Positions 3,583 through 58,711 of a DNA stretch of 64,000 bases are shown here, one piece after another. Location: the NCBI RefSeq assembly GCF_009746125.1, contig NZ_CP041352.1, positions 895,847 to 959,846 on the forward strand, in the 5' to 3' direction. Position 1 is the stretch's first letter. Every line of letters starts with the position of its first letter. The notes beneath the pieces were generated by a model. That model was not told the origin of the DNA and made no database searches. It worked only from the letters and a program-made list of their open reading frames with translations. The stretch is from Casimicrobium huifangae. GTDB lineage: Bacteria > Pseudomonadota > Gammaproteobacteria > Burkholderiales > Casimicrobiaceae. The position numbers were made by a program, and so were the translations under genes.

Positions 3583-3710
3583 CAGCTTTGCAAATTTTCC
3601 CGCTGAAAGCCTTATTCAATAAGGGCTACGTCGCATATGTACCAAGAAGTCGACTTTTTATCGAATACGCGCCGTGGCCCTTGCTCCATGCAATTTGCGA
3701 GACAAAGCTG
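3583..3710. repeat. GTCGAC-centred palindromic intergenic element, copy A
   Basis: Copy of the symmetrical repeat described in the findings. GTCGAC is at 3649-3654. An AGGGC block begins 27 bases before it (3622), a GCCCT block begins 28 bases after it (3677), and CAGCTTT (3583) and AAAGCTG (3704-3710) are the outer ends. The left hairpin is AGCCTTATT / AATAAGGGCT. It lies in the divergent gap between the TctC receptor and the TctD-like regulator. The right arm is about ten bases shorter than in the other copies. Confidence 0.8.
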
Positions 3711-3758
3711 ATGCCGAAATCGTGGCGAAACACTACACTTGTACGAGGAGGAAACATC

Positions 3759-4502
3759 GTGCGAATTTTGCTGGTGGAGGATGACGCCGAGCTTGGTAGC
3801 GGCGTCTGCGCGAGCCTGAAGCGCGAGCACTACGCGGTGGACTGGGTGACCGACGGTCCCGCAGCGTCCACGGCGCTCAGCACAGGCCAGTACGATCTGG
3901 TCATTCTCGATCTCGGGTTGCCGAAAATGTCGGGGCTGCAGGTGTTGCGCCAGTTGCGCTCGCGGGGCGAGGCGCAGAAGGCGGTGCCGGTGCTGATTAC
4001 CACGGCGATGGATTCGGTGACCGACCGTGTCGAAGGCCTAGACGCCGGTGCCGACGATTACCTGGTCAAGCCCTTCGCGCTGGACGAGTTGCACGCCAGG
4101 GTGCGCGCGCTGATCCGCCGCCGCAACGCCGCGACCAGCAATCTGCTGGCGCATGGCCGCCTCACCTTTGATATTGCCTCGCGGCAAGCGTCCTCGGACG
4201 GCACGCCGCTGGAACTGTCAGTGCGCGAGGCGGGCATCCTCGAAGTGCTGCTACTGCGCGCCGGACGTGCAGTGACCAAAGAGCAGTTGATGGAAGGCCT
4301 CTGCGCGTGGGACAGCGACATTTCGCTGAACGCCATCGAGGTTTACGTGCATCGCCTGCGCAAGAAGCTGGAGCCCGCTGGCATTCAGGTGCGCACCTTC
4401 CGCGGCCTCGGTTATTGCATCGACAAGCCCCTGGTCAACGGCACCGACAAACCCATCAACGGTCACGACGAGGCGCCGCGCGCCGCTGCCCGCACGCAAT
4501 GA
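3759..4502 (+). CDS. OmpR-family response regulator, TctD-like
   Basis: A 247-residue two-component regulator. The receiver domain spans residues 1-115 with phospho-acceptor Asp51 (LVILDLGLPKMSG), acidic pair Asp8-Asp9, Thr81/82 and Lys104 (VKPF). A winged-helix DNA-binding domain fills about 128-225, followed by a polar tail. The start chosen is GTG at 3759, because GAGGAGG lies just upstream (3745-3751) and the protein then begins MRILLVEDD; upstream in-frame codons run through repeat copy A. It overlaps the sensor kinase by ATGA. Family and context resemble TctD, which controls carboxylate uptake. Confidence 0.92.
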   Translation: MRILLVEDDAELGSGVCASLKREHYAVDWVTDGPAASTALSTGQYDLVILDLGLPKMSGLQVLRQLRSRGEAQKAVPVLITTAMDSVTDRVEGLDAGADDYLVKPFALDELHARVRALIRRRNAATSNLLAHGRLTFDIASRQASSDGTPLELSVREAGILEVLLLRAGRAVTKEQLMEGLCAWDSDISLNAIEVYVHRLRKKLEPAGIQVRTFRGLGYCIDKPLVNGTDKPINGHDEAPRAAARTQ

Positions 4503-5941
4503 GTCTTGCCGCGCGGCTGCTGGAATGGCTGCTCGCGCCCCTGCTGTCGATCTGGCTGGTGAGTCTGGGCATCTCGTTCATGAGTGCCCGCACCACCGTC
4601 GACACTGCGCTTGACGACGGCCTGAGCGCGGTATCGGCGATGCTGATGTCGGAGTGGGAGCAGCGCGCCACCACGCGCCCTGACCTGGCGATCCCGTCGG
4701 AGCCCACCAAGCAGTGGATGAATCTGGCGCCGGAGTTTCCGGTGCTCTACCTGATCGTCGATGAAGCGGGCGTCGCCGTCGCTGGCGATGATTCGCTACA
4801 GTCGTTTCTGCGTGCGACCGCCGATGCCGACAGCCCGGAAGCAGCGCCGGTCATTCCGCGCGAATTCCGCCATGTGCACGGCTTCAATACCGTCATGGAT
4901 GACGCGGTGATGCGTGTCGTCCGCCTGCGTTTCACCGCAGGTCCGAAGGAGTTTGTCCTCGCCGTCGCGCAGTCGCGCGAGCGGCAGGCGGCGTTGCTGC
5001 GGACTGGCATGCTGCACGAGGCGCTGGCGCAGTCGGCCGTGCTGCTGGTGGCCTTCTACCTGCTCTGGTACGGGCTCACCTATGTGGCGCGCCCGATGAA
5101 GGCTTTACAGCAGCATCTCGACGCGCGCTCTGCTGACGACTGGACGCCGCTTCCCGAGCAGCTGGCCCCGCACGAAATCGCGCCACTGATTGCATCGACC
5201 AATGCGCTGATCGAGCGATTGCAGACCTCGCTCGGTGCCCAGAAACGGTTCATCGCCAACGCTGCCCATCAGTTGCGTACGCCGCTGGCGGCGCTGCGTA
5301 CCCAGAGCGAACTGCTGCAGCGTTTGCCGGAAGGACCTGAGCGCGACCAAGCGATGCAGCGCCTGGTCGCCACCGGGCGCCGGGCCAGCCGTCTGGCCAA
5401 CCAGTTGCTGGCACTTGCCCGCGCCGAAAGCATGGGCACGACGGGGGTTCGCCAGCCGGTGCCGCTGAATGCCTTGTGCGAGAGTGTCGCGCGCGACGTC
5501 CTGCCGCAGGCGATTGAACGCGAAATTGACTTCGCCTTCGAACCGGCACCCGCCGAACTCGCCGTGATGGGCGATGCCACGCTGCTCGGTGAGCTGACAC
5601 GCAACCTGGTCGACAACGCGTTCAAGTACACGCCACGGGGTGGTTCAGTGGTGCTGGCGGTCCTCGGCGAGCCGTCGCGCATCGTGGTCGATGACTCCGG
5701 CCCCGGCGTGGCGGAGGCTGATCGCGAGCGTGTCTTTGCGCCCTTCTCGCGGGTGGCGCAGCTCGACACCGAGTCGGGCACGCCGATACCGGGCACCGGT
5801 CTTGGGCTTGCGATCGTGCGCGAGGTGGCGCAGGCGCATGGCGCCACGGTCGGCATCGAGACCTCCTCGATGAATGGCGCCCGATTTGTTGTCAGCTTCG
5901 CGTCAGTCGCTCGTCAGAGCACCGTAAGCCCCGCTCTCTAA
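4499..5941 (+). CDS. sensor histidine kinase, TctE-like
   Basis: A 480-residue inner-membrane kinase paired with the preceding regulator. Membrane segments are at about 10-29 and 177-197, enclosing a periplasmic sensor domain of about 145 residues. A HAMP-like linker follows, then the phospho-acceptor His257 in FIANAAHQLRTPLAAL. Catalytic N box NLVDNAFKYTP, G1 DSGPGV and G2 GTGLGL are all present. Start and stop overlap the regulator by four bases, giving translational coupling. TctE proteins of this layout sense tri- or dicarboxylates; the divergent TctC/aldolase genes and downstream MHS symporter are plausible targets. Confidence 0.92.
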   Translation: MSLAARLLEWLLAPLLSIWLVSLGISFMSARTTVDTALDDGLSAVSAMLMSEWEQRATTRPDLAIPSEPTKQWMNLAPEFPVLYLIVDEAGVAVAGDDSLQSFLRATADADSPEAAPVIPREFRHVHGFNTVMDDAVMRVVRLRFTAGPKEFVLAVAQSRERQAALLRTGMLHEALAQSAVLLVAFYLLWYGLTYVARPMKALQQHLDARSADDWTPLPEQLAPHEIAPLIASTNALIERLQTSLGAQKRFIANAAHQLRTPLAALRTQSELLQRLPEGPERDQAMQRLVATGRRASRLANQLLALARAESMGTTGVRQPVPLNALCESVARDVLPQAIEREIDFAFEPAPAELAVMGDATLLGELTRNLVDNAFKYTPRGGSVVLAVLGEPSRIVVDDSGPGVAEADRERVFAPFSRVAQLDTESGTPIPGTGLGLAIVREVAQAHGATVGIETSSMNGARFVVSFASVARQSTVSPAL

Positions 5942-12091: not shown

Positions 12092-12368
12092 GGTGCAAAT
12101 TATCCGATAGCCGGTAGCCTCCAGTAGGTCTTTGCGTCGGCGCTCAATTACGCGGGGCGTACGCAATTTCCGGGGCGAACCGCGACATCCAATTTGCTGT
12201 GGCAGCGCCTTTTGTTAAATTGCCGCAATGCGCGGGACAACGACGCGCGAACTGGAAAACTGTGACGGTGCCAGCGGCGCTATCCGTCAAAATGGACCGT
12301 TCCTTGCTTTCGTCCTCTCATACCGGCGCTCCACGACCGCGCCTTCAACATCAACCGGAGACCCAACC
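12092..12368. promoter_or_regulatory. divergent promoter region, racemase / dctP1
   Basis: A 277-base gap between the racemase start and the first TRAP receptor. A ribosome-binding site (GGAG at 12357-12360) serves dctP1. Promoters for both directions should lie here, but I could not pick convincing -35/-10 pairs or a clear operator dyad. Confidence 0.4.
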
Positions 12369-13346
12369 ATGAAACTGCACAAGACGATTCTTGCTGCGAC
12401 GGCGCTGACCGGCGCGATAGCCTCGATGTCTGCTTTCGCCCAGACCAAATGGGATCTGGCGTCGGCGTACCCGCCGGCCAACTTTCACACGCAGAATCTG
12501 ACCCAATTCGCCAGCGACGTCGACAAGGCCACGGGCGGCAAGCTGAAGATTACGGTGCACTCGAACGCGTCGCTGTTCAAGGCACCCGAGATCAAGCGCG
12601 CGGTGCAGACCGGTGGCGCGCAGATGGGTGAGATCCTGCTGGTCAACTTCCAGAACGAGTGGCAGCTTTTCGGCGCTGATGGCGTCCCCTTTCTCGCCGA
12701 TAGCTATGACAGCTCGATGAAACTGTACGGCGCCCAGAAGCCGATGATGGACAAGAAGCTTGGCGAGCAGGGCATGATGCTGCTCTATGCAGTGCCGTGG
12801 CCGCCGCAGGGCATCTATTCGAAGAAGCCGCTGGCGAGCGCTGCCGACCTGAAGGGCAGCAAGTGGCGCGCCTATAGCCCGGCAACTGCCCGCATTGCAG
12901 AGCTGGTCGGTGCACAACCGGTGACGGTGCAGGCCGCAGAGCTCTCGCAGGCGCTCGCGACCGGGGTGGTGGAGAGTTACATGAGCTCCGGTTCGACGGG
13001 GGTTGACAGCAAGACCTATGAACACATCAAGAACTGGTACGACACTCAGGCCTGGTTGCCGAAGAACGGCGTACTGATCAACAAGAAGGCTTTTGATGCG
13101 CTCGACAAAGCGACACAAGACGCCGTGCTGAAGGCTGGCCGCGACGCCGAAGCCCGAGGCTGGGAACTGTCCAAAAAGACCAATACCGAATCGCTGGAGC
13201 AACTGAAGAAAGGTGGCCTGGTGGTGCATCAGCCGTCGCCTCAACTGAAGGCAGATATGAAGAAAGTGGGCGAAACCCTGCTGGCCGAGTGGCTGAAAAA
13301 CGCCGGCGCCGAGGGGCAGGCGCTGGTCGACGCCTACCGCAAGTAG
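12369..13346 (+). CDS. TRAP transporter substrate-binding protein (DctP), system 1
   Basis: A 325-residue periplasmic receptor of the DctP family. The signal peptide is MKLHKTILAATALTGAIASM then SAFAQ, and the mature start is TKWDLASAYPPANFHTQNLT. The pocket-region segment VPWPPQGIYSKKPL is shared with two more receptors in this window (at 17145 and 20162), so all three probably bind related ligands. The ATG at 12369 follows GGAG. The membrane genes dctQ1 and dctM1 follow, separated by a hairpin terminator that would favour receptor over membrane subunits. Confidence 0.93.
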   Translation: MKLHKTILAATALTGAIASMSAFAQTKWDLASAYPPANFHTQNLTQFASDVDKATGGKLKITVHSNASLFKAPEIKRAVQTGGAQMGEILLVNFQNEWQLFGADGVPFLADSYDSSMKLYGAQKPMMDKKLGEQGMMLLYAVPWPPQGIYSKKPLASAADLKGSKWRAYSPATARIAELVGAQPVTVQAAELSQALATGVVESYMSSGSTGVDSKTYEHIKNWYDTQAWLPKNGVLINKKAFDALDKATQDAVLKAGRDAEARGWELSKKTNTESLEQLKKGGLVVHQPSPQLKADMKKVGETLLAEWLKNAGAEGQALVDAYRK

Positions 13347-13357
13347 GCTGCAAACAG

Positions 13358-13381
13358 AAAGGCAGGGTAACCTGCCTTTTT
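13358..13381 (+). terminator. intra-operon terminator/attenuator after dctP1
   Basis: Stem AAAGGCAGG / CCTGCCTTT with GTAA loop and a short T run, 12 bases after the dctP1 stop and 48 bases before dctQ1. It should stop part of the transcripts, giving more receptor than permease. Confidence 0.75.
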
Positions 13382-13428
13382 CGTCCGCAACAAGCGCTCA
13401 GCAAGAAGCAAAGCCCGGGGAAGTTCGA

Positions 13429-13938
13429 ATGCGCTCTGCACTGGATCGGATGTACATGACTGCCGCCTGGCTGGCGGCATTGCTGATGATCGGGCTCCTG
13501 ATCATGGTGTTGCTGTCCATCCTGGGCCGGCAATTCGGCTTTCATGTCCGGGGAACGGATGCCTACGCTGGCTACATGATGGCGGGCGCCGGATTCCTCG
13601 CGCTTGCCCACACACTCAAGCGCGGCGAACATATTCGCGTGACACTGCTGCTGCAGGCCCTATCCCCCAAAGCGAAGCGTCGGCTTGAGTTGCTGGCGCT
13701 TGCAGCGGCATTGTTGCTGGCTTTGTTGCTCGCAATATTCAGCGTCAAGCTGTGCTGGCAGTCGCTGCAATTCAACGATATCTCCACCGGTAACGACGCT
13801 ACGCCGCTGTGGATTCCGCAAATCGCTATGGCGCTGGGAACGGTCATTCTTGCGGTCGCATTCCTCGATGAACTTGTTCTTGAGTGGCAGGGCAGGCGGG
13901 TCGTCGCCACCAGCGACGAAGCCTTGCACAACGAATAG
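13429..13938 (+). CDS. TRAP transporter small membrane subunit (DctQ), system 1
   Basis: A 169-residue inner-membrane protein with four predicted helices, the size and pattern of DctQ subunits that join receptor to permease. Landmarks are LGRQFGFHVRGTDAYAGYMM and LAHTLKRGEHIRVTLLLQ. The ATG at 13429 follows GGGGAAG. dctM1 begins 17 bases after its stop. Confidence 0.9.
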   Translation: MRSALDRMYMTAAWLAALLMIGLLIMVLLSILGRQFGFHVRGTDAYAGYMMAGAGFLALAHTLKRGEHIRVTLLLQALSPKAKRRLELLALAAALLLALLLAIFSVKLCWQSLQFNDISTGNDATPLWIPQIAMALGTVILAVAFLDELVLEWQGRRVVATSDEALHNE

Positions 13939-13955
13939 CGCGAAGGGAGCCTGAC

Positions 13956-15254
13956 ATGGATTTACTGATTACCGCGCTGCTCATTGTCGTGTTGTTTGCG
14001 CTGCTTGCCGGTGGCGTCTGGATTGGCCTGACGCTCGCAGGAGTAGCGTGGGTTGCCATGGAGCTGTTCTCGTCGCGTCCGGCCGGCGATGCGATGGCAG
14101 TTACGATTTGGGGGGCCTCGTCAAGCTGGACGCTCACGGCATTGCCGCTCTTTGTCTGGATGGGCGAAATCCTGTTCCGCACTCGTCTGTCGCAGGACAT
14201 GTTCAAGGGGCTTGCTCCCTGGGTGGAGCGCTTGCCCGGCCGTCTGCTGCATACCAACGTGATCGGCTGTGCCATCTTCGCCGCTGTGTCGGGCTCCTCC
14301 GCCGCCACCTGCGCCACCATTGGCAAGATGACATTGCCTGAACTCAAGTCGCGCGGCTATCCGGACGATATGGTGATTGGTACGTTGTCCGGCTCCGGCA
14401 CGCTCGGCTTGTTGATCCCCCCGTCCATCATCATGATCGTCTATGGCGTGGCGGCAGATGTGTCAATTTCCAAGCTGTTCATTGCCGGCGTGATTCCAGG
14501 CATCGTGCTGGCGACGCTGTTCTCGGGCTACATCGCGGTGTGGGCTCTGCTGAACCCCAGCAAGATTCCGGCGGCTACGGCCCGTTATACGTTCATCGAG
14601 AAGCTGCGTGAATCACGGCACCTGATCCCGGTTGTGCTGTTGATAGTGGCCGTGCTTGGGTCAATCTATGCGGGCATCGCCACGGCAACGGAGGCGGCTG
14701 CTGTCGGCGTTGTCGGCTCGCTGGTGCTGTCGGCAGCGCAAGGTGCGCTGTCCTGGCAGACGTTCAAGGAGAGCCTGCTGGGAGCCACCCGGCTCTACTG
14801 CATGATTGCGATGATCCTGACCGGTGCCGCTTTCCTGACACTGGCGATGGGCTATCTCGGTCTGCCCCGCCACCTGGCGGAATTCATTCAAGGTCTTGGT
14901 CTGTCGCAGTTCACGCTGGTGATCGCACTGGCGATTTTCTACATCATTCTCGGCTGCTTTCTTGATGGCATTTCGATGGTGGTGCTGACGATGGGGGTTA
15001 TCCTGCCCACGGTCACGGGGGCCGGGCTCGACCTGATCTGGTTTGGTATCTTCATCACGCTGGTGGTCGAGATGGCGCAGATCACGCCGCCGGTCGGCTT
15101 CAATCTGTTCGTGCTGCAGGGCATGACCAAGCGCGAGCTCACCTACATCGCGCGGGTGTCACTGCCGATGTTCTTCCTGATGTGCGCCGCGGTGCTGCTC
15201 ATCTATTTCGTGCCGGGGCTGGTCACCTGGTTGCCCACCAACATGAAGCTCTAG
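13956..15254 (+). CDS. TRAP transporter large permease (DctM), system 1
   Basis: A 432-residue, roughly 12-helix permease of the DctM family that drives sodium-dependent uptake. Landmarks include FVWMGEILFRTRLSQDMFKG, AAVSGSSAATCATIGKM and LLIPPSIIMIVYGVAADVSI. The start is ATG at 13956, with GAAGGGA upstream. It is closely similar to dctM2 at 18756 over its whole length, so the two transporters appear to be paralogues from a local duplication. Confidence 0.93.
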   Translation: MDLLITALLIVVLFALLAGGVWIGLTLAGVAWVAMELFSSRPAGDAMAVTIWGASSSWTLTALPLFVWMGEILFRTRLSQDMFKGLAPWVERLPGRLLHTNVIGCAIFAAVSGSSAATCATIGKMTLPELKSRGYPDDMVIGTLSGSGTLGLLIPPSIIMIVYGVAADVSISKLFIAGVIPGIVLATLFSGYIAVWALLNPSKIPAATARYTFIEKLRESRHLIPVVLLIVAVLGSIYAGIATATEAAAVGVVGSLVLSAAQGALSWQTFKESLLGATRLYCMIAMILTGAAFLTLAMGYLGLPRHLAEFIQGLGLSQFTLVIALAIFYIILGCFLDGISMVVLTMGVILPTVTGAGLDLIWFGIFITLVVEMAQITPPVGFNLFVLQGMTKRELTYIARVSLPMFFLMCAAVLLIYFVPGLVTWLPTNMKL

Positions 15255-15300
15255 ACACGACGAAAAGCGCTGCTGCAAAGGCATTCCACGCTGCTGCCTA

Positions 15301-16200
15301 ATGAATCTCCGCTTTGTCGAGGCTTTCTACTGGGTCGCCACACTCAAGTCCGTATCGCGCGCTGCCGAGAAGCTGTTCATCACACAGTCCGCGATGTCGG
15401 CGCGCGTCGCTGCACTCGAGGATGAGCTCGGCGCGCTGTTGCTTGACCGGCGTGACAAGACCTTCCGTCTGACCGTCGCCGGGTCGCGCTTCCTGGTACA
15501 CGCCCAGAAGCTGCTGGAGCTGCAGCGTACCGCAAAGGCCGAGGTTGGCTCTGAGCTTGCGCCGGAGATGACAGTACGTCTCGGCGCCATCGAATCAGTG
15601 CTGCACTCGTGGCTGATCCCCTGGGTAGAAGCCCTGCGCCAGCAGTATCCCTCGCTCGAACTTGAACTGACCGTTGAAACAACGCCGGTGCTGATCGACC
15701 AGATGCGGCGCGGCGTTCTCGACATTGCCTTCGCCGCCCTGCCTGCGAGCGGGGATGGCATCCGCACGAGCACGTTCCCGACCATGGAGATGTGTTTCGT
15801 CGGCAACAGGACCATTCATGCCAGGCGCAAGTACAGCCTTGAGGAAATTGCCGCATTTGACCTTCTGACCTTTCAGCGTGGTTCACAGCCGCATGTCGGT
15901 CTGCTCGACCTGCTCAGGTCAAAGCGGATCCAGCCGCGCAAGGTGCACACCATCTCGTCGATCTCCGCGATGCTGCAACTGGTACACGGCGGCTTTGGCG
16001 TGGCGACCCTGCCAAAGGCCGCCGTCGAGCGCCTGAGCGAGACGCGCCACATTCGGCCGCTCGTCTGTACCAGTGCGTTGCTGCCGCTGCCAATTCATGT
16101 CAGCTATCGGCTGGATCCGGTGGCATTGACGGCGGAGCAACTGCTTGCCGGCGCTGCTGACTACGCTGGGAAAAAGTCCAGCTATCGAAAAAATCGATGA
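15301..16200 (+). CDS. LysR-family regulator in the TRAP/oxoprolinase cluster
   Basis: A 299-residue LysR-type regulator. Helix-turn-helix at residues 1-60 (FYWVATLKSVSRAAEKLFIT, QSAMSARVAALE); the C-terminal effector domain starts about residue 90. It lies 46 bases after dctM1 in the same direction and just before the D-glutamate cyclase-family gene, so it is the likely local regulator of both TRAP systems. No clear ribosome-binding site precedes the ATG at 15301. Confidence 0.9.
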   Translation: MNLRFVEAFYWVATLKSVSRAAEKLFITQSAMSARVAALEDELGALLLDRRDKTFRLTVAGSRFLVHAQKLLELQRTAKAEVGSELAPEMTVRLGAIESVLHSWLIPWVEALRQQYPSLELELTVETTPVLIDQMRRGVLDIAFAALPASGDGIRTSTFPTMEMCFVGNRTIHARRKYSLEEIAAFDLLTFQRGSQPHVGLLDLLRSKRIQPRKVHTISSISAMLQLVHGGFGVATLPKAAVERLSETRHIRPLVCTSALLPLPIHVSYRLDPVALTAEQLLAGAADYAGKKSSYRKNR

Positions 16201-16290
16201 GTTGACAAAAAAATTTTGTGTTTGCCCTGCGAAATGTGACCGCTTAAAAATCGCTACCAGTTCATCCGGTAACGAAAGCAGACGATCCGC

Positions 16291-17112
16291 ATGTCGGTAC
16301 AACCGATCCAATCAGGGACACAGTCTCCCGCCAATTCGGCGCTTGCCGCCAGCGTTCGGGCACGCATTCGCGCTGGCATCTGGACTAGCCATACCAGTGG
16401 TCTGGCCGACCAGCACGTACAGGGTAATGTGGTCATCCTGCCGGAAGCACAAGCCAACGACTTCCTTCGCTTCTGCCAGCAAAACCCCAAGCCCTGCCCA
16501 CTGCTCGCGGTATCGGAGCCAGGACAATACCTGCTGCCTACGCTCGGCCAACAGGTGGACATCCGCACCGATGTGCCGCGCTATCGCGTCTGGCAGCACG
16601 GACAACTGACCGACGAACCAACCGATATCGCATCAATCTGGCGCGACGATCTGGTCACCTTCATCATCGGTTGCTCGTTCTCGTTCGAGCAGGCACTGCT
16701 TGAGGCAGGATTGCCCTTGCGTCACGTCGAGCAGGGCCGAAACGTTGCCATGTTCCGCTCCAGCATCGCGACGAACGCCGTGGGGCCATTTCATGGGCCG
16801 ATGGTGGTCTCAATGCGGCCGTTCAAGCCAGCCGCTGCCATACGTGCGATCCAGATTACCTCGCGTTTTCCGCAGGTGCACGGCTCGCCCGTTCACGTGG
16901 GCTTGCCGCATCTGATTGGTATCCATGATCTGTCGCGTCCGGACTACGGCGATGCCGCCGAGGTTCGTGATGATGAACTGCCAGTGTTCTGGGCTTGTGG
17001 CGTTACCCCGCAGGCGGTCGTTGCACAGGCCAAACCCGACTTCTGCATTACGCACGCACCGGGTGCGATGCTGATCACCGATTTGCTTAACCACCAACTC
17101 GCGAGCTTCTGA
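16291..17112 (+). CDS. D-glutamate cyclase / DUF1445-family putative hydro-lyase
   Basis: A 273-residue protein of family PF07286 (formerly DUF1445, YcsI-like). The human member of this family converts D-glutamate to 5-oxo-D-proline and water. Landmarks are the N-terminal [20 protein letters not shown] with [13 protein letters not shown], then [48 protein letters not shown] and, near the end, WACGVTPQ and [11 protein letters not shown]. The next gene (dctP2) starts 32 bases later. Its presence among TRAP receptors and a 5-oxoprolinase ties this locus to glutamate/5-oxoproline chemistry. Confidence 0.85.
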
Positions 17113-17144
17113 CGTTGCTCGCTAATCAATTGACAGGGGATTAC

Positions 17145-18110
17145 ATGAAAACAACACTCGCGTTGGTCGTCGCGTGCCTTGCCACGGTACCAAGCTTCGC
17201 ACAAACGAAGTGGGATTTGCCGACGGGTTACGCCACGGGCAGTTTCCAGACTGAGAATGTGCAGGCATTTGCCAACGATGTTGACAAGGCTACAGCGGGA
17301 AAACTGAAAATCACGCTGCACGCCAACGGTTCGCTCTACAAGGCGAACGAAATCAAGCGGGCGGTGCAGACGGGTCAGACGCAGGCGGGCGAGTTCATTC
17401 TCTCCGGTGCGGCAAACGAGAACGCACTGTTTGGCGTCGACTCCATTCCGTTTCTCGCGACCAGCTACGACGACGCACGTCGCCTGTACAGCGCGCAGAA
17501 GCCCGCGCTAGAAAAGCTGCTGGCCACCCAGGGAATGAAGCTGCTCTTCTCGGTACCCTGGCCGCCGCAATCGCTGTACTCGGTCAAGCCGATCAACGGC
17601 CCCGACGATCTGAAGGGCACCAAGATGCGCGCCTACAACCCCGCGACAACGCGTATCGCCCAATTGCTGAAGGCACAGCCGACGACGATCCAGTTGGCTG
17701 AATTGGGGCAAGCCCTGGCGACCGGCACCGTCGAAAACTTTCTGACGTCGAGCGCCAGTGGCATCGAGAACAAACTGTTCGAGCAGACCAAATACTTCTA
17801 TTCAGTGGCAGCCTGGTTGCCGCGCAACGCGACGGTCGTCAGCCAGAAGGCGTTTGACGCGCTCGACCGCCCGACGCAGGATGCTGTGCTGAAGGCTGCT
17901 TCCGCTGCCGAGCAACGCGGCTGGCAGATCAGCGAGCAGAAGGACGCGGAATTCATCAGAGAACTGACAGCGAAGGGCATGAAGGTCAGCGTACCGCCGG
18001 ATGCGCTCAAGAAGGAGCTTGTCACCATCGGCGATTCGATGACTGCAGACTGGCTCAAGTCAGCAGGCGCTGACGGCCAGGCCATTATCGCGACTTACCG
18101 CAAGAAGTAG
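17145..18110 (+). CDS. TRAP transporter substrate-binding protein (DctP), system 2
   Basis: A 321-residue periplasmic receptor. Signal peptide MKTTLALVVACLATVPSFAQ; mature start TKWDLPTGYATGSFQTENVQ, very similar to dctP1. It shares FSVPWPPQSLYSVKPI with the other two receptors. The start ATG at 17145 follows CAGGGGA; an earlier in-frame TTG would extend it by ten residues. dctQ2 and dctM2 follow. Confidence 0.93.
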   Translation: MKTTLALVVACLATVPSFAQTKWDLPTGYATGSFQTENVQAFANDVDKATAGKLKITLHANGSLYKANEIKRAVQTGQTQAGEFILSGAANENALFGVDSIPFLATSYDDARRLYSAQKPALEKLLATQGMKLLFSVPWPPQSLYSVKPINGPDDLKGTKMRAYNPATTRIAQLLKAQPTTIQLAELGQALATGTVENFLTSSASGIENKLFEQTKYFYSVAAWLPRNATVVSQKAFDALDRPTQDAVLKAASAAEQRGWQISEQKDAEFIRELTAKGMKVSVPPDALKKELVTIGDSMTADWLKSAGADGQAIIATYRKK

Positions 18111-18129
18111 GCGTCCTGCAGACACCGCT

Positions 18130-18148
18130 GCCGGGCAAAGCACCCGGC
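18130..18148. other. hairpin between dctP2 and dctQ2
   Basis: GCCGGG / CCCGGC stem with a seven-base loop, 20 bases after the dctP2 stop, without a T run. By analogy with the terminator after dctP1 it may stabilise the receptor message or weaken read-through into dctQ2. Confidence 0.45.
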
Positions 18149-18240
18149 GCAGCCTCCCGGTACGAACTTGGCACACACCGCTGCGGTGGCCAAGCGTGTA
18201 GCGGACACAACATAAACAAATCTTACAGTCGGGGTGTGAC

Positions 18241-18747
18241 GTGGGGAATGCTTTATCCAAAATCTATGACGGCCTGATGCTGCTCGCCTGCGTGTCAATG
18301 CTGGCTGCCTTTGCGACCATCATGCTCGGTGTGGTGGCGCGTGAGGCAGGCTGGGACATTCAGGGGCTCGATGCATACGCCGGCTACTCCATTGCTGCAG
18401 CGCTCTCTCTGGCGCTACCCGGCACGCTGCAAAATGGCGATCACATCCGCGTGTCGCTGATCCTGCAGCGCTCGCCCGCTCGCATACAGAACATCCTCGA
18501 ATACTGGGCCTTGCTGGCCGGGCTGACGCTGGCGCTGTTCATGGCTTGGTACGCGGCGCGGCTGGCCTGGGTGTCATGGTCAACCCATGACATATCCCCG
18601 GCGGCAGACGCGACACCACTGTGGATCCCGCAGCTAAGCATGGTGATCGGCTGTGTTGGCTTCGCGCTCGCCATGTTGCACGCGCTGGTCGCCCGAATCA
18701 CTGGCAGCACATTCTTCGCTGCCAGTGGCGCGGCAAACGTCGAGTAG
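18241..18747 (+). CDS. TRAP transporter small membrane subunit (DctQ), system 2
   Basis: A 168-residue inner-membrane protein with four hydrophobic segments, matching dctQ1 in layout (LGVVAREAGWDIQGLDAYAG, NGDHIRVSLILQ). The start is GTG at 18241, with only a weak GGGGTG ribosome-binding site upstream. dctM2 starts nine bases after its stop. Confidence 0.88.
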   Translation: MGNALSKIYDGLMLLACVSMLAAFATIMLGVVAREAGWDIQGLDAYAGYSIAAALSLALPGTLQNGDHIRVSLILQRSPARIQNILEYWALLAGLTLALFMAWYAARLAWVSWSTHDISPAADATPLWIPQLSMVIGCVGFALAMLHALVARITGSTFFAASGAANVE

Positions 18748-18755
18748 AGGCCATC

Positions 18756-20048
18756 ATGGAAGTCGTTATCGCGTTCGCGCTGATCGTTGCCCTACTGGTC
18801 GTTCTTGGCTCGGGCTTGTGGATCGGCCTGTCCCTGCTTGGTGTCGCGGTACTTGCCATGCAGTTGTTCACCTCGCGGCCAGTGGGGGACAGCATGATGC
18901 TCACCATCTGGGGCTCCACTTCCAGCTGGACGCTGACGGCGCTGCCGCTATTTCTGTGGATGGGTGAAATTCTGTTCCGCAGCAAACTCAGCAGCGACAT
19001 GTTCAGGGGCCTGGCTCCCTGGCTCAACCGTCTCCCTGGTCGCCTGCTGCACACCAATGTGATTGGCTGCACCATCTTTGCGGCAGTATCCGGATCAAGT
19101 GCGGCGACCTGCGCGACCATCGGCAAGATCACATTGCCTGAACTAAAACGTCGCGGCTATCCCGATGACATTGCGATAGGCACGCTGGCTGGAGCGGGAA
19201 CACTTGGCCTGCTGATACCACCGTCCATCATCATGATCGTCTACGGCGTGGCGGCCAACGTGTCGATCGCGAAACTCTTTATCGCCGGGGTGATTCCGGG
19301 CCTCATGCTGGCTGCATTGTTCATGGGCTACATCATTGTCTGGGCATTGTTCAACAAGGACAAAGTGCCTGCCGCAGACAGCGAGTTGTCGTTTCGCGAC
19401 AAGCTCTACGAATCGCGCCATCTGATCCCGGTGGTCTCGCTGATCGCCGTGGTGCTGGGTTCCATCTACAGCGGGCTAGCCACGGCAACCGAGGCGGCTG
19501 CCCTTGGCGTTGCAGGTTCACTGGTGCTGTCAGCCATCGAGCGTTCACTTAGCTGGCAGACCTTCAAGGAAGGGCTGGTTGCCGCGTGCCGTGTTTACTG
19601 CATGATCGGCCTGATACTCGCGGGCGCGGCCTTCCTGACGCTGGCGATGGGCTTCATGGGGATGCCGCGACATCTGGCGGAGTTCATCGGCGGCCTCAAC
19701 CTGTCGCCGTTCGTACTGATTCTGATGCTGACCGGTTTCTTCATCGTGCTGGGATGCTTCCTCGATGGCATCTCGATGGTGGTGCTGACGATGGCGGTGT
19801 TGCTGCCCACGGTACAAAAGGCCGGCTTCGACCTGATCTGGTTCGGAATTTTCATCGTTCTGGTGGTCGAGATGGCGCAGATCACGCCCCCGGTTGGCTT
19901 CAACTTGTTCGTACTGCAAAACCTTACCAAGCGGGAGATCACGTATCTCGCGCGTACGGCCCTGCCGCTGTTCGTGCTGATGCTGGTGGCGGTGTTGGCC
20001 ACCTACTTCGTACAGGACATCGTGCTCTGGCTTCCGGGGCACATGTAG
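18756..20048 (+). CDS. TRAP transporter large permease (DctM), system 2
   Basis: A 430-residue DctM permease, nearly collinear with dctM1 (FLWMGEILFRSKLSSDMFRG, AAVSGSSAATCATIGKI, LLIPPSIIMIVYGVAANVSI). The start is ATG at 18756; the upstream in-frame region belongs to the end of dctQ2. It probably also serves the third receptor, which has no membrane subunits of its own. Confidence 0.93.
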   Translation: MEVVIAFALIVALLVVLGSGLWIGLSLLGVAVLAMQLFTSRPVGDSMMLTIWGSTSSWTLTALPLFLWMGEILFRSKLSSDMFRGLAPWLNRLPGRLLHTNVIGCTIFAAVSGSSAATCATIGKITLPELKRRGYPDDIAIGTLAGAGTLGLLIPPSIIMIVYGVAANVSIAKLFIAGVIPGLMLAALFMGYIIVWALFNKDKVPAADSELSFRDKLYESRHLIPVVSLIAVVLGSIYSGLATATEAAALGVAGSLVLSAIERSLSWQTFKEGLVAACRVYCMIGLILAGAAFLTLAMGFMGMPRHLAEFIGGLNLSPFVLILMLTGFFIVLGCFLDGISMVVLTMAVLLPTVQKAGFDLIWFGIFIVLVVEMAQITPPVGFNLFVLQNLTKREITYLARTALPLFVLMLVAVLATYFVQDIVLWLPGHM

Positions 20049-20161
20049 GCACGCCAAAGGCGGTTGCTGCCACATTTTGGCAAGCGGATTTGAGAAGCCG
20101 CGGCAGCATCCACCCCAAGCGAGCAACCCGTAGTCAACAAAACCAACTGAGGGCTGTCATC

Positions 20162-21145
20162 ATGTCGTTACGTCACGTCCTGGTTACTTTGCTGCTGCTC
20201 GCCTGTGCATCGCGTTCAGCGATTGCTCAGGTCACCTGGAAACTGGCGACCGGCTATCGGGCCGAGTCCTTTCATACGCAAAATATCCAGTCGTTCGCCG
20301 CCGAGGTGGTGAAGACCACGGACGGTGCACTGAAAATAGATGTGCACCCGGGAAACAGTCTCGTCGCATTGAACGATGTGCGTCAAGCCGTGCAGGACGG
20401 CCGTGTCGATGCCGGTGAGACCATCATGACCAGCATGGTCAAGGACTTGAGTCTGGCGGGGGCTGACTCCGTGCCGTTTGTCGTGGGCAGTTACGCTGAC
20501 GCCCGCCGTCTGTGGGCGCTGCAGCGGCCGACGATGGAGCGGCTGCTCGCCCAGCGCGGTCTGAAACTTCTGTATTCGGTGCCGTGGCCGCCGCAAGGGC
20601 TGTATTCGAAACGACCCATTGCCGATGCCAAGGACTTTCGCGGCTCCAACATGCGAACCTACAACGACACTACGGTGCGCATTGCGCAGTTCCTCGGCGC
20701 TACGCCAGTCAATGTTGCAATGGTTGACGTTGGCAAGGCGCTGGCCGACGGCCGCGTGGACAGCATGATCACCTCGGCTGTCACTGGCGTGGAAAATCGT
20801 GTCTGGGATCATGTGCGCTACTACTACGAAATCAACGCGTGGTATCCGAAGAACATCGTGATGGTCAACCAGAAGCGCTTCGATGCTCTGTCGAAAGAAG
20901 CAAAGGCTGCGCTGATGCGCGCGGCCGAAAGCGCCGAGTTGCGTGGGTGGAACGCCAGTGAACGGGCCGCGCAGGAGTCGGTCGAAACGCTGCGACGCAA
21001 CGGCGTTAAGATCGGCGCTACACCGCCGGGACTGGAGCGCGAAATCCAGCGTATCGGTGAAAGATTTTCCAGCGAGTGGGTAAAGGCGGTAGGGGCCGAC
21101 GCACTCGAAGTATTCATTCCCTATTTCATGGCGTCGAGTAAATGA
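20162..21145 (+). CDS. third TRAP substrate-binding protein (DctP), coupled to oxoprolinase
   Basis: A 327-residue periplasmic receptor with signal peptide [20 protein letters not shown] then IAQ; mature start [20 protein letters not shown]. It is more diverged than dctP1 and dctP2 but keeps [16 protein letters not shown]. It has no DctQM of its own; dctQM2 lie immediately upstream. Its stop overlaps the start of the oxoprolinase gene as ATGA, which directly couples import and hydrolysis and is the best evidence that its ligand is the enzyme's substrate. Confidence 0.92.
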
Positions 21146-35803: not shown

Positions 35804-35918
35804 CGCCGACGCGATGCCTCCTCTTTTTGAATAGTTCTATCTGTTTCGGGTATTGGACGGCGACGCCGGGGTGCGACAACAATTCGCCACCCTTTCGATG
35901 ACGTCCAACCGAGTACGC

Positions 35919-36854: not shown

Positions 36855-36864
36855 TCGCAAGTCG

Positions 36865-36888: not shown

Positions 36889-36920
36889 ACGGCAAAACAA
36901 CAGGAATCCAGGAGGACTCA

Positions 36921-37889: not shown

Positions 37890-37902
37890 TCGCAGCATCG
37901 CC

Positions 37903-38589
37903 ATGCAACACGCGCTCGTTACCGGCAGCAGCTCCGGCATCGGTCATGCCATCGCCACCGCATTGCTTGATGCGGGCTGGCAGGTCACCGGCCTTGATCG
38001 CGCCGACGCCACCATCGCTCACGCGGCTTATGACCATCACGCCGTCGACCTCACCGATAGCGCTGCCTTGCACGCTGCTGCACTCGCTTGCGCGAACGTG
38101 GACGCCTTTGCGCATGCCGCCGGTGTGTTGCGCGTCGGCAAGGTGGGTGAACTGGATCACGCGGGCGGCGAGCTGATGTGGAAGTTGCATGTTGATGCAG
38201 CAGCCCGTCTCGCCGACGTGCTGATTCCGGCAATGGCTGCGCGCGGCAACGGACGCGTGGTGCTGATCGGCAGCCGCGTTGCGGGGGGCAAGGCGGGGCG
38301 CGGCCAGTACGCTGCCACGAAAGCAGCGCTGATCGCGCTCGCCAAAAGCTGGGCGGCAGAGGTCGCCGCGCAGGGCGTGACGGTCAACGTGGTTTCCCCG
38401 GCGGCCACGGCCACCGGAATGCTCGCCGACCCTAAGCGCGCAGCCGAGACACCAGTGTTGCCGCCCATCGGTCGCCTGATCCAGCCCGAAGAAGTGGCCG
38501 CACTCGTTGCCTTCCTGATGTCGGCAAACGCTGCCGCCATCACCGGGCAGGACATCCAGATTTGCGGCGGATCGTCGCTCAACAAATAG
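37903..38589 (+). CDS. short-chain dehydrogenase/reductase
   Basis: A 228-residue NAD(P)-dependent classical SDR: nucleotide-binding ALVTGSSSGIGHA, catalytic Ser in LIGSRVAGGKAG, and YAATK active-site Tyr/Lys. It lies 13 bases after the Bug receptor and 16 before D-tartrate dehydratase. Probably oxidises a hydroxy-acid in the same pathway; substrate not readable. Confidence 0.87.
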   Translation: MQHALVTGSSSGIGHAIATALLDAGWQVTGLDRADATIAHAAYDHHAVDLTDSAALHAAALACANVDAFAHAAGVLRVGKVGELDHAGGELMWKLHVDAAARLADVLIPAMAARGNGRVVLIGSRVAGGKAGRGQYAATKAALIALAKSWAAEVAAQGVTVNVVSPAATATGMLADPKRAAETPVLPPIGRLIQPEEVAALVAFLMSANAAAITGQDIQICGGSSLNK

Positions 38590-38605
38590 ATTCACGCTTC
38601 TCCTC

Positions 38606-39772: not shown

Positions 39773-39784
39773 GCTTCGTTGCGA

Positions 39785-39935
39785 GCCTCTCCTGCGGAGC
39801 AGGGGAGGTGCCGCGTAGCGGCGGAGGGGTGACATAGCTGTTGCTCCGCACCGTGCTTACTCACCGCCTCAGCAACCCCTCTGTCGGCTGCGCCGACATC
39901 TCCCCTGTTGTACAGGGGAGACTTGCATTCCCGCT
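39785..39935. repeat. large inverted repeat between operons
   Basis: The left arm (from CTCTCCTGCGGAGCAGGGGA, ending near GGCGGAGGGGT at 39829) and right arm (from AACCCCTCTGTCGGC to CTCCCCTG...CAGGGGAGAC at 39932) are roughly complementary and each contains smaller hairpins (TGCGGAGCA, GTCGGCTGCGCCGAC, CCCCTGTTGTACAGGGG). This resembles widespread proteobacterial REP-like spacers. No coding potential seen. Confidence 0.7.
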
Positions 39936-39980
39936 ACTCACCCATTGTTGGGCCGTACCGTCTCCTCTACGATTGCGTGC

Positions 39981-40882
39981 ATGACCGATGCCGCTTCTTC
40001 GTCGCCTTCACCTTCACTCAGGCCGTCAGCGCAATCGCATTGCCGCAACTGCGGCACGCCGGCGCCCGGAAAGTATTGTCCGGAGTGTGGTCAGGAAACC
40101 TCACTGCATCCCCCTTCGGTCCGCGAGTTTGTTGATCACTTTCTTGGCAACTACGTCGCGGTCAGGAGCACGCTGGCGCAGACGCTATGGGCGCTGGTCA
40201 GCAAGCCGGGTCAACTGACGGTCGACTATCTCGCTGGCCGCAAGCGCCGGTACGTTTTGCCGCTGAAGCTCTATCTCACGGTCAGCATCGTCTCGCTGCT
40301 GCTGATCAGCCTGTTTGCGGGGCTGGGCACTGGTACACCACCAGTGCAGGTGAGCCGTGAAATGAACGGCAGCTTCATCGACATAAACGGCGCGATTGTG
40401 CGCTACGACAAGGGCAAATTTGTCTGCGAGGGGCTGCCGGATCGCGTCTGCAACCACCTGCGCAAGCGGTTCGACCACAGCCCCGCCGAGTTGCGCGCGG
40501 CGTTCGCCGATATGCCGCAGCGCATGCTCAAGTTCTGGGGCTATGCGATGTTTGTGCTGATTCCAGCGTTCGCGCTGATGCTGCACTGGCTCTACCGCAA
40601 CCGCCGCATGGTCTACGGCGAGCATCTGGTGTTCGCGCTGCATCTGCACGCGTTCTGGATGCTCGCGGTGCTCGTTCTGGTGCTGTTGCCCGACGCAGCA
40701 CCTGCCATTGTCGTTCCGCCATTGCGTTCGCGGTGCCGGTGTACGCGCTGCTCGCCATGCAGCGCGTGTACGGCGGTCGCTGGTGGCCGCGCCTGTTGCG
40801 CGCTGGATTGATGTCGGTCTGCTACGAAGTCATCGCCCTGATGGTGCTGGTAATCGTGACCGCACTGGCGGTCATTTTCTGA
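39981..40882 (+). pseudogene. DUF3667 membrane protein, frameshifted near its C-terminus
   Basis: Begins MTDAASSSPSPSLRPSAQSH followed by a zinc-ribbon CRNCGTPAPGKYCPECGQ and two clear membrane segments, the DUF3667 layout. The open frame runs to 40811, but after about 40720 its residues turn Cys/Arg-rich nonsense, while the next frame reads IAFAVPVYALLAMQRVYGGR and on to LMVLVIVTALAVIF, stopping at 40882. One base appears missing between about 40690 and 40722. This may be a true decay or a sequencing error. Confidence 0.75.
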
Positions 40883-40884
40883 AC

Positions 40885-41000
40885 AGCATTCAGCAAAGAT
40901 CCCCATTTGATATGGGCTGCAGCGGCAAAACGGCAGAAAGTCGACATGAAGCGATTTTCCCCGTGAAGCCCAGTTTGAATAGGGCTTTCAGCAAAAAGCC
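40885..41000. repeat. GTCGAC-centred palindromic intergenic element, copy D
   Basis: GTCGAC at 40940-40945, with TGGGC (40913-40917) and GCCCA (40968-40972) exactly symmetrical. The right hairpin is GCCCAGTTTGAATAGGGC, the left one CCCATTTGATATGGGC. Outer AAAAAGCC at 40993-41000; the left end is degenerate. It directly precedes the RsmB-type gene. Confidence 0.82.
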
Positions 41001-41026
41001 ATAGGTTCGGCCTCTACAATGCCACC

Positions 41027-42265
41027 ATGCTGTTACGACCCTCTGCGCTGAGCGCACTTGCCTTCGCCATTCAGTCCGCGGCGAAGTTTGACTACCCTGC
41101 CGACCGCACACTCTCTTACGTGCTGCGCGAAAAGCGCGTCGGCTCGCTGGATCGTCAGCTGGTGGCCGAGGGCTACTACGCGTGGCTTCGGCATCGTCTG
41201 TCGGTCGAAGCGATTGCTGGCGACGGCGCCAAGTTCGACGCGATTGCACTGGCCGCGCTGGCGCGCCAGTTCCGCCGCCGCGTCAAGGTGCCGCCGGGCG
41301 AAGAAGATCGTTACGCGAAATTTCTGAAGGCCGACGAAGCACTCGGCCCGCATCCGCGCCGTGAACTGCCCACGTGGCTCTGGGACCGGCTCGGCGTGCA
41401 GTACGGCAACGAAGAGCGTCTCGCGCTCGCCGATTCGCTGCTGGAACCGGCCAGCTTCGACCTTCGCGTCAACACGCTGAAGGCCAAGCGTGACGCCATT
41501 CTCGGCCGCTTGCAGAAGGAAGGCTTTCCCGATGCCCGCGCCACGCCGCTGTCACCGGTGGGCATACGGCTGCCGCATCGCGTTGACATCTCGCGCCACC
41601 CGCTGTTTGAGGATGGCACGCTGGAAGTGCAGGATGAAGGCAGCCAGTTGCTGGCGCATATCGTCGGCGCCAAGCGCGGCGAAATGGTCATCGACTTCTG
41701 CGCGGGCGCCGGCGGCAAGACGCTCGCATTGGCAGCGATGATGGCCAGCACCGGTCGGCTGTACGCCTGCGACGTCAGCGAACGCCGGCTCGACAATCTC
41801 GGCCCCCGTCTCGCGCGCAGCGGCGCCAGCAATGTGCAGACTATGCGCATCGAGAACGAGCACGACAAGCGGCTCGACAAATTCATCGGCAAGGCGGACC
41901 GCGTGCTGGTCGATGCGCCGTGCTCGGGCCTGGGCACGCTCAAGCGCAACCCTGACCTGAAGTGGCGGCAATCGCCGACTAGCGTGAAGGAGCTGGTGGA
42001 GAAGCAGAAGAGCATCCTCGCCGCCGCATCGCGCCTGGTGCGACCGGGCGGGCGCCTCGTCTACGCGACTTGCAGCGTGCTCACGGAAGAAAACGAGAAG
42101 ATCGCCGAGAGTTTCCTCGAAGCAAACCCCGGCTGGATCATCGTGCCGTCATCGTTGCGTGGCGAGGAGGCGGGTGAATCGCGTTTTGCCCAACTGCTGC
42201 CACATCGCGATGGCTGTGATGGGTTCTTTGCGGCAGTGTTTGAGCGCAGCACCAGCGAAGACTGA
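41027..42265 (+). CDS. RsmB/NOP-family RNA (cytosine-5) methyltransferase
   Basis: A 412-residue SAM-dependent methyltransferase of the NOL1/NOP2/Sun family, with an N-terminal NusB-like helical region. SAM site VIDFCAGAGGKTLALAAMM; catalytic cysteines in VDAPCSGLGTLKRNPDLKW and VYATCSVLTEENE. Target is probably a 16S rRNA cytosine, but it lacks the full RsmB signature, so the exact base is open. It begins 27 bases after repeat copy D. Confidence 0.88.
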   Translation: MLLRPSALSALAFAIQSAAKFDYPADRTLSYVLREKRVGSLDRQLVAEGYYAWLRHRLSVEAIAGDGAKFDAIALAALARQFRRRVKVPPGEEDRYAKFLKADEALGPHPRRELPTWLWDRLGVQYGNEERLALADSLLEPASFDLRVNTLKAKRDAILGRLQKEGFPDARATPLSPVGIRLPHRVDISRHPLFEDGTLEVQDEGSQLLAHIVGAKRGEMVIDFCAGAGGKTLALAAMMASTGRLYACDVSERRLDNLGPRLARSGASNVQTMRIENEHDKRLDKFIGKADRVLVDAPCSGLGTLKRNPDLKWRQSPTSVKELVEKQKSILAAASRLVRPGGRLVYATCSVLTEENEKIAESFLEANPGWIIVPSSLRGEEAGESRFAQLLPHRDGCDGFFAAVFERSTSED

Positions 42266-53683: not shown

Positions 53684-54215
53684 GATCTCAGGTATTCAGC
53701 GCTTTCGGCGGTTCGGGATTGATGGACGCAGTCTAGGTGGCGTCAGCGGCCGGAGCAAAGACGGTTCGACGAATCGACAGGATTGCGCCGCCATTGTCAG
53801 CCGGGTTTCGCCAGCGGCAGTCAGATGGCTGTCGTGCGTCGTGCCTTTTGTGCAGCTTTCGTTGAAAACGACCACTGAATCGGGTTTAGACCCGTAACTG
53901 GCATAAAGTCGACTTTCGATCATATTTGATCCAGGCCCATATTCGATGGTATTTTCGTCAAAAAGCTGTTGCTTGCGAACTCACCGCAAATTCGTGCCAA
54001 TTGCGCCAGATCAAGCGGGGCTCGCTTCGCCAGCGGTTCAAGCGACGTTTGGAGCACTCCGATGGCTGGAAAGACAGTTTTCGAACCTAAAATAACACGC
54101 AGAATTGTCCGGCCCCGGAACAAGGTCTTTGTCAGACTAAGCGCAAGTTGCGTGGCGTTTGAGACTGGCGTTTCCTGCGGCTGCGATATCCGACAGACCT
54201 GAGGGAGAGACTTCC
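53684..54215. promoter_or_regulatory. 532-base gap between divergent units
   Basis: Holds repeat copy E (53853-53968), the promoter for the minus-strand LytTR operon and that for the plus-strand desaturase. Apart from the repeat I see no gene with credible codon use, and no second inverted repeat. Confidence 0.5.
53853..53968. repeat. GTCGAC-centred palindromic intergenic element, copy E
   Basis: GTCGAC at 53908-53913. CAGCTTT (53853) and AAAAAGCTG (ending 53968) are exactly symmetrical outer ends. The left inner block is CGGGT, 27 bases before the centre, with its own hairpin CGGGTTTAGACCCG; the right inner block GCCCA is at 53935, also 27 bases after, one less than in most copies. Confidence 0.83.
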
Positions 54216-57816: not shown

Positions 57817-58547
57817 AGCAATTCCGCGAAGTATTCGTGCGCGGCGGTGTTGACCGTGGATATCCGCAATTCGACCGGCTCGTCGCGCATGTCGATCGCC
57901 GTGCGGCGTATTGTCAACACGGGCATGCCGGGCTTGATTTTCAGCAGCTTCGCATGGTCGATTGACGCAGCTTCTGCCCGCAGCCGCTCCTCGGTGCGCA
58001 CGACCGTGATGCCGAAGACTTCCTGATAAAGGTTGTAGATGGTGTTGGGCCGTTCCTTGAACTGCGCGGCTGACAGGCCCGCAAAGCGTGCCAGGTCAAG
58101 CGTGATGTCGTCCACCAGCACCACCGCGCCCTGCAGCGAGAGCTTGTTGCGGATGTGCAGGGTCGGTGTACCGACGGCGATGTTCAGGCGCGCTGCCGCT
58201 TCGGCATCTGCCGTGCTCTTGTGGAAGAACACGAACTCAACCAGCGGATAGCTCTTGATGCCCTTGTGCGGCACGATGTGGAAGAAGTAGAACAGCAACC
58301 GTTCGCGATCATGCGAGGCGACGTAGGTGCCCTTGCCCTGCTGGCGGATCAGGATGCGGTTCTCGACCAGCTCATCAATTGCCTTGCGCAAGGTGCCGAT
58401 CGAGACGCTGAACTCGATGGCGAGCTGCCGCTCGGAGGGGATCAGTTGCCCCGGTTTCAGCTCACCCGATGCCAGTTGCTCCATCAGCGCACGCTGTACG
58501 CCCTTGTAAAGCGGCCCGCCATCGGGGTTGTTCAATGAAGTTGCCAT
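57813..58547 (-). CDS. GntR-family regulator with UTRA domain
   Basis: A 244-residue HutC-type repressor: winged helix residues 12-75 (PLYKGVQRALMEQLASGELK, LIPSERQLAIEFSVSIGTLR, QQGKGTYVAS) and a UTRA effector domain from about 95. The downstream ROK kinase suggests a phospho-sugar or amino-sugar effector; upstream lies an SDR/sulfolactate-type operon, also a possible target. ATG at 58547. Confidence 0.9.
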   Translation of the reverse strand: MATSLNNPDGGPLYKGVQRALMEQLASGELKPGQLIPSERQLAIEFSVSIGTLRKAIDELVENRILIRQQGKGTYVASHDRERLLFYFFHIVPHKGIKSYPLVEFVFFHKSTADAEAAARLNIAVGTPTLHIRNKLSLQGAVVLVDDITLDLARFAGLSAAQFKERPNTIYNLYQEVFGITVVRTEERLRAEAASIDHAKLLKIKPGMPVLTIRRTAIDMRDEPVELRISTVNTAAHEYFAELL

Positions 58548-58593
58548 AACTTTGCAGTATCGCTTGCGGTGAACCGACTGTCGATGGACGCTT

Positions 58594-58711
58594 CAGCTTT
58601 TTCGCAAGAAGTCCATTTTATGTGGGCATGAAGCTGGAAAGAGGATGAAGTCGACTTTGCGTTGAATGTAATGCGAAGCCCAGATATATTGGGTGTTAGT
58701 GTGAAAAGCTG
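58594..58711. repeat. GTCGAC-centred palindromic intergenic element, copy F
   Basis: GTCGAC at 58650-58655. TGGGC (58623) and GCCCA (58678) are exactly symmetrical, as are outer CAGCTTTTT (58594) and AAAAGCTG (ending 58711). This copy shows the complete outer left arm, TTTTTCGC, matching the right-arm TTTTCGCG of copy B in reverse. Between the GntR start and the SDR stop. Confidence 0.87.

Follow-up and report, generated by a model that had tools for sequence, protein, structure and literature searches.

The 64,000-nucleotide window analyzed here (positions 895,847–959,846 of the single-contig, 4,465,898-bp genome of Casimicrobium huifangae, contig NZ_CP041352.1, hereafter G000) contains six copies, A to F, of an intergenic element of ~120 bp that consists of two ~60-bp half-sites mirrored about TCGA. 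Our profile scans place these copies in a genome-wide family whose members keep a rigid internal geometry, lie between genes, are spaced more evenly than expected by chance and recur at orthologous positions in related genomes. On balance, the element is probably a composite double-stranded site for a putative large or multimeric DNA-binding protein that organizes the chromosome. An earlier note on this DNA had suggested three roles, namely a non-autonomous mobile palindrome, an RNA stability element or a binding site for a nucleoid or segregation protein; the last is the reading that survives, with protein binding itself something that we infer.

Anatomy of the element

All six copies with a central GTCGAC reported in the earlier note were confirmed in the window sequence (gene calls, here and below, are from a simple codon-usage script):

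Element A, 3592–3711, no strand: dyad after base 3651; genome positions 899443–899558; 64.7 bits; left outer CAGCTTT displaced ~10 bp outward
Element B, 27602–27721, no strand: dyad after base 27661; 72.6 bits; on the 3' side of an MnmA-type tRNA methyltransferase gene of the minus strand
Element C, 34659–34778, no strand: dyad after base 34718; 66.9 bits; at the 3' end of a DUF3108 gene (33487–34656), facing a LysR-type gene
Element D, 40883–41002, no strand: dyad after base 40942; 76.5 bits; between a DUF3667 gene and an RsmB/F-type methyltransferase gene
Element E, 53851–53970, no strand: dyad after base 53910; 69.9 bits; divergent genes on either side
Element F, 58593–58712, no strand: dyad after base 58652; 60.9 bits; tandem minus-strand genes on either side

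The shared spacing of the GCCC block also held, the right-arm GCCC starting 26 bp from the dyad in five of the six copies and 25 bp from it in copy E. Of the outer ends CAGCTTT and AAAGCTG given in the note, the left CAGCTTT of copy A (3583–3589) sits ~10 bp outside the family register (aligned extent 3597–3712). The small hairpin said to open at the right-hand GCCC block needed correction, as GCCC is often followed by a G-rich block further out, and this on both sides of the dyad.

The anatomy of the half-site was derived from 101 G000 elements (202 halves), a set whose matrix leans to strong copies because it includes strict-pattern picks and best model matches. Reading outward from the dyad, the half-site comprises GACTT (positions 1–5), an A/T tract (13–15), AGCCC (25–29), a G-rich block (39–41), TTT (44–46) and AAAAGCTG (52–59), and the spacing of these landmarks is held within 1 bp in nearly all elements. 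For example, an exact GCCC lies near its expected place in 177 of the 202 halves (150 at +26 and 25 at +25), AAAG follows GCCC at a distance of 27 bp in 126 of 146 halves, and an exact GGGC is found beyond GCCC in 53 of the 177, mostly 9–10 bp away. A half-site matrix trained on 260 halves from G000 and its relative G018 gave a training median of 41.6 bits (5th percentile 12.9), as against 11.4 bits for the best match in one shuffled 464 kb. The sequence between the landmarks is another matter: the mean pairwise identity between G000 copies is 48%, with a maximum of 67.5% in 3000 sampled pairs, and the commonest 16-mer is present in only 5 of the 101 copies. The proposal that geometry is kept more than sequence is thus upheld. 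The whole element shows an AT period of roughly 9.5 bp, the wings peak at 7.4 bp, and positions that are A/T only suggest a shape readout. The earlier description lacked the A/T tract 13–15 bp from the dyad, the even spacing, the stand-alone halves and the clade dialects set out below.

Family size, placement and spacing

The idea of a genome-wide intergenic family with about one member per 10 kb was borne out by the profile scans, from which we estimate ~370–400 sites for the 4.47-Mb genome (38 in a contiguous 464 kb, four of them partial matches, and 36 in 400 kb made up of twenty evenly placed 20-kb samples). A strict half pattern found 46 places in G000, and its reversal none. A profile built from 32 copies found 71 distinct places in 864 kb of sampled G000 DNA (~57 kb of this total being covered twice), and at E<1e-3 it gave no match in dinucleotide-model random DNA or in reversed DNA. 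The scan of the genome and of related genomes, which had been set as a check beforehand, therefore returned far more than six copies and none in control DNA. The 20-kb samples hold 0–4 elements each, with no obvious gradient along the chromosome. Judging from GC skew, whose sign is mainly positive over the first half of the chromosome and mainly negative over the second, replication starts near coordinate 1 and ends near 2.3 Mb.

All 38 elements of the contiguous 464 kb are intergenic, one of them overlapping gene ends by 3 and 16 bp. They occupy 19 tandem, 10 divergent and 9 convergent gaps. An element is present in 8 of 22 convergent gaps with a length of 125 bp or more and in 29 of 160 others, a difference that falls short of significance (P 0.085). 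Within tandem gaps, the element is closer to the 3' end of the upstream gene in 13 of 19 cases (medians 57 and 158 bp). None of the 37 distances between neighbors is below 3.5 kb, where simulations average 8–9 such distances and random intergenic placement gives about 8, and the observed minimum was reached in none of 5000 simulations under each of three nulls. A similar regularity is seen in the relative G009, with 26 elements in 200 kb and, over 25 gaps, a minimum of 2.7 kb and a coefficient of variation of 0.56.

Conserved positions and clade dialects

The elements are found between the same genes in different species. Proteins encoded around elements B and C are 74–97% identical between G000 and G018, and at the six loci where sampled pieces of the two genomes overlapped (five from stretches chosen around G000 elements), an element lies between the same genes in all six, one being split at the dyad and one having ~2 kb of extra DNA beside it. 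The split site is a full G018 element (contig C79, ~196123–196321) interrupted by ~198 bp of other DNA, its G000 orthologue (1642407–1642526) being intact. The identity of orthologous sites was measured on B, C and four of these six loci, each pair in the better of two orientations; the locus at 1642407, whose G018 site is split, and a diverged locus at 2583783 were left out. The paired sites carry the same base at 176 of 228 high-information positions and at 102 of 264 low-information ones (0.39), as compared with 0.70 and 0.32, respectively, for unrelated G000 copies treated in the same way. Outside the landmarks, orthologous sites have thus become nearly as different as unrelated copies, while the landmarks and the position of the site stay. 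Further afield, the position of element C is occupied in 8 of 16 relatives (weakly in G011 and by a partial match in G009, whose DUF3108 protein at this locus is 52% identical), and that of element B in 5 of the 11 relatives in which we found its neighbor gene.

The landmark sequence varies by clade, and we refer to these variants as dialects. For example, G013 carries CAAGCCCGT.aTGGAtGcg in place of the AGCCC..GGG part and keeps the rest, and the G009 element has GCCCAATTWAATTGGGC twice, 50 bp apart, about an A/T-rich TCGA centre, with a consensus from which the T run is absent. When matrices built from eight elements of each species were resampled 60 times per species, the elements of G013 (nine in number) were assigned to G013 in 60 of 60 cases, G000 elements to G000 or G018 in 53 and G018 elements in 48, and G017 elements to G017 or G015 in 57 and G015 elements in 55. 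At loci B and C, the own clade was the best fit for 10 of 10 orthologues from five species. Such concerted change over hundreds of sites would call for either a co-evolving binding protein or some form of drive.

In the samples searched, related sites are restricted to one uncultured Burkholderiales genus. The first profile matched 3 of the 300 genomes sampled in the order, all in one of 135 genera, a geometry-only pattern matched 3 of 399 (one of 158 genera), and a G009-based profile matched at least 9 of 64 genomes of the family, all of the same genus and now including G006 and G007; the two profile searches used stricter filters that lose weak matches. The strict pattern run over 84,980 genomes returned 23 stretches, with hits in four Betaproteobacteria/Burkholderiales/Proteobacteria metagenome-assembled genomes (MAGs) and a single place in each of two further genomes, an Anaerolineales MAG and Actinomadura, these last two being taken as chance. 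Within the genus, at least 150 matches at E<=0.001, counting both strands, were obtained in each of G000, G013 and G015–G018, and G020 has few elements.

Stand-alone half-sites

Some halves stand alone and end at the dyad (our list of 23 solo matches includes weak ones and one duplicate). The clearest case lies ~210–250 bp upstream of mraZ in the cell-division gene cluster (G000 963017–963079), with its TCGA end facing the gene. This half is kept as a half, at 17 bits or more, in 9 of the 16 genomes with an mraZ match (in 8 by profile at E<0.05), and no partner half above 8 bits was found at the dyad in those genomes. We therefore rejected the possibility that it derives from a broken element; being conserved as a half, it seems, at this locus at any rate, to constitute an independent unit.

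DNA site or nucleic-acid structure

The earlier note had also proposed that either base-pairing geometry or protein spacing is under selection. Arm-swap controls do not support the former, as they come out nearly equal to the true arms: cross-arm complementarity over all columns is 0.468 within a copy and 0.454 with arms swapped between copies (z 2.2), the corresponding values for low-information columns are 0.305 and 0.299 (z 0.55), and a run-based arm-pairing test over the whole arm gives a z of 0.4, with no copy-specific pairing signal for the second hairpin. The arms of a given copy thus match each other hardly better than arms taken from different copies, although selection for a hairpin or cruciform should make them do so. 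Each arm behaves as a half-site independent of the other. An RNA stability element finds no support either, since 10 of the 38 copies lie in divergent gaps and Rfam gave no match at gathering score in the window. At E<=1, four weak sub-threshold Rfam matches were obtained in 27400–41200, none of them on B, C or D. On the arm-swap controls we rejected the RNA or cruciform reading, the folding of single copies being expected of a mirror consensus.

A candidate chromosome-organizing site

The properties of the family fit a site for a sequence-specific DNA-binding protein. Each half would be recognized by a single copy or a single multimer of that protein, which would contact the DNA at fixed landmarks along some six turns of the helix. 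With several hundred of these sites at one per 8–12 kb, rarely closer than ~2.5 kb, the chromosome would carry a lattice, the likeliest use of which would be chromosome organization through the anchoring, bridging or insulating of ~10-kb domains. An architectural role is proposed because it would be the simplest cause of the even spacing, the intergenic restriction and the conserved position. We infer protein binding, a dedicated protein co-evolving with the dialect and the architectural role itself. More tentatively, the family may represent a genus-level chromosome-organizing system of an undescribed kind, in which a dedicated protein would act on hundreds of evenly spaced 120-bp mirror sites arranged in a near-regular lattice with a built-in minimum distance, positions would be inherited while protein and sites co-evolve into dialects, and directional half-sites such as that upstream of mraZ would be oriented single units.

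Several observations weigh against a purely architectural DNA site. The first hairpin (GCCC..GGGC) shows weak copy-specific pairing (z 3.2, reached by none of 500 shuffles), which splits into a z of 2.5 for the GCCC/GGGC part alone and 0.3 for the inner part, and ten individual copies gave more stable folds than their shuffled versions (z -1.6 to -5.5). Mirror symmetry alone produces better-than-shuffle folding, but together these two signals leave some room for a structural role. Nearness to the upstream 3' end in tandem gaps would be given likewise by a transcription-linked role. The spacing rule is not absolute, as G015 has one gap of 1.65 kb (in a set of 13 elements that counts one element twice) and G017 one of 2.48 kb; in G018, two pairs of partial-element matches lie 251 and 884 bp apart, the 251-bp case being the site split at its dyad. 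Nor are the positions kept throughout: no site was detected at the element C position in 8 of the 16 relatives (G005, G006, G007, G008, G010, G012, G014 and G019, some of the relatives lacking a site there having short contigs or a different downstream gene) or at the element B position in 6 of the 11 in which its neighbor gene was found, and G014 gave no match at all by profile at E<=0.001 on both strands.

Alternative explanations

Among the alternatives, an unlikely one is that of a selfish element of the REPIN or MITE type, moved by a transposase and held in place by vertical descent. The intergenic location, the inverted pairs of a half unit, the stand-alone halves and the dialects changing in concert are all features that such an element would share. 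Y1 transposases are also present in 15 of 17 genomes, several of them RAYT-type as judged from sequence, and none was found in G014 or G020, small-genome relatives with no or few elements. G000 has four such genes:

Y1 transposase genes of G000, at 4154873, 2013791, 3570710 and 3283946: three of the four over the family cut-off

The nearest elements, however, are ~2.3–3.1 kb away from two of these genes, and none lies within the ~8-kb stretch around the other two; on the other hand, G015 has a partial element ~130 bp away from another kind of Y1 gene, which is IS200-like. According to two published accounts (PMC3116915, PMC8049555), REPINs show near-invariant 16-mers, compensatory arm changes, a random extragenic distribution and decaying singlets. 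The low identity between copies, the rarity of even the commonest 16-mer, the near absence of compensatory arm changes at low-information columns, the even spacing and the conserved mraZ half all argue against elements of this type. No near-identical copies were seen in the sampled pairs, and no empty site was met at the six G000–G018 loci, a comparison between two species. The mobile palindrome of the earlier note is likewise not supported, given the 48% mean identity and positions common to several species.

Strong DNA gyrase sites are a less probable explanation still. Under this view the element would be a ~130-bp dyad wrapped by gyrase and cut within the central TCGA, with about one site per topological domain; its length, dyad and rough 9.5-bp AT period are similar, and a ~10-kb spacing would suit supercoil domains. 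The gyrase motif, as given in PMC6379681, is 130 bp long and symmetric, with a centre and two 47-bp wings and a GC period of 10.75 bp. The 7.4-bp peak of the element wings differs from this period, at which the wing power is 0.21 vs 0.85 for the Mu strong gyrase site. The A/T phase, compared with that one Mu site (dyad placed from the cut-site feature of its record and from the cut sequence in PMC9886550), gave a wing correlation of -0.07 with a null standard deviation of 0.25. It was on this wing period and phase that we rejected a gyrase wrap as first choice, and restriction to one genus would moreover be odd for a universal enzyme.

That the element is a bidirectional transcription terminator or mRNA 3'-end element is improbable. 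The halves often read outward as AGCCC-N9-GGGC followed by a T-rich stretch, one stem of copy D scores terminator-like, and the preference for the upstream gene's 3' end points the same way. A terminator is hard to reconcile, however, with the elements in divergent gaps and the insignificant convergent excess, with the G009 consensus devoid of a T run, or with G013, which replaced the GGGC side while keeping the rest, and a 15-kb scan gave 13 terminators vs 12.4 in shuffles. The slightest chance goes to a target on which a site-specific nuclease or recombinase would act at TCGA, dialects then spreading through gene conversion when other copies serve as repair templates; half-sites that end at the dyad, the G018 copy split there and the concerted landmark dialects would fit, but low-information positions are only ~0.30 identical between copies and thus not homogenized, so that conversion tracts are not seen, and the mraZ half, being conserved as a half, is not breakage debris.

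Having weighed these explanations, we retain a site for a chromosome-organizing protein as the favored one. If a protein binds the elements, they would offer a direct test of how bacterial chromosomes keep ~10-kb domains and a handle on how hundreds of sites can change sequence together without losing position. The consensus element also provides a defined DNA bait for finding the candidate protein.

Other repeats in the window

Facing pairs of another short palindromic repeat (GACGACGCGCTGCGCGCTAGGACG and variants), unrelated to the element, also occur in the window (28892–28915, 29004–29027, 60794–60817 and 61025–61048). Five copies of it within 4 mismatches occur in the 864 kb of sampled DNA, and it may represent a REP family with CGTC ends, which it resembles. 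Separately, window positions 12228–21145 contain repeated stretches ~4.8 kb apart, with 76% and 70% DNA identity over two 300-bp stretches, which may be duplicated TRAP transporter genes.

Comparison with known systems

To our knowledge, no bacterial counterpart has been described for intergenic sites that are this long, evenly spaced and conserved in position and that obey a distance rule, and a literature search that covered few subscription papers turned up none. The closest likenesses are partial. As described in PMC3116915 and PMC8049555, RAYT-associated REPINs likewise lie between genes as symmetric unit pairs, number several hundred per genome, include single units and are long-lived; the elements described here differ in the 48% identity of their copies, in showing almost no arm covariation, in being evenly spaced, in having a conserved single and in not flanking the G000 Y1 genes. 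Strong gyrase sites are alike in being ~120–130 bp, dyad-symmetric and degenerate with alternating A/T and G/C, but unlike them, the elements have base-specific landmarks (GTCGAC, AGCCC and AAAAGCTG). ERIC sequences are intergenic imperfect palindromes of ~120–130 bp, enterobacterial, with copies similar over their whole length. The present elements resemble them in length, location and symmetry, but have only landmarks in common and come from one Burkholderiales genus. The DNA uptake sequence of Neisseria, about 12 bp long and more numerous, also has lineage-specific dialects, whereas the elements are long composite dyads; uptake sequences and integron attC sites were considered and set aside. 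On the other hand, SlmA, Noc/NBS, MatP/matS and parS systems use dispersed palindromic sites of about 12–16 bp, each with one architectural or division protein, and compared with these, the elements span 120 bp, are intergenic in 38 of 38 cases and are evenly spaced.

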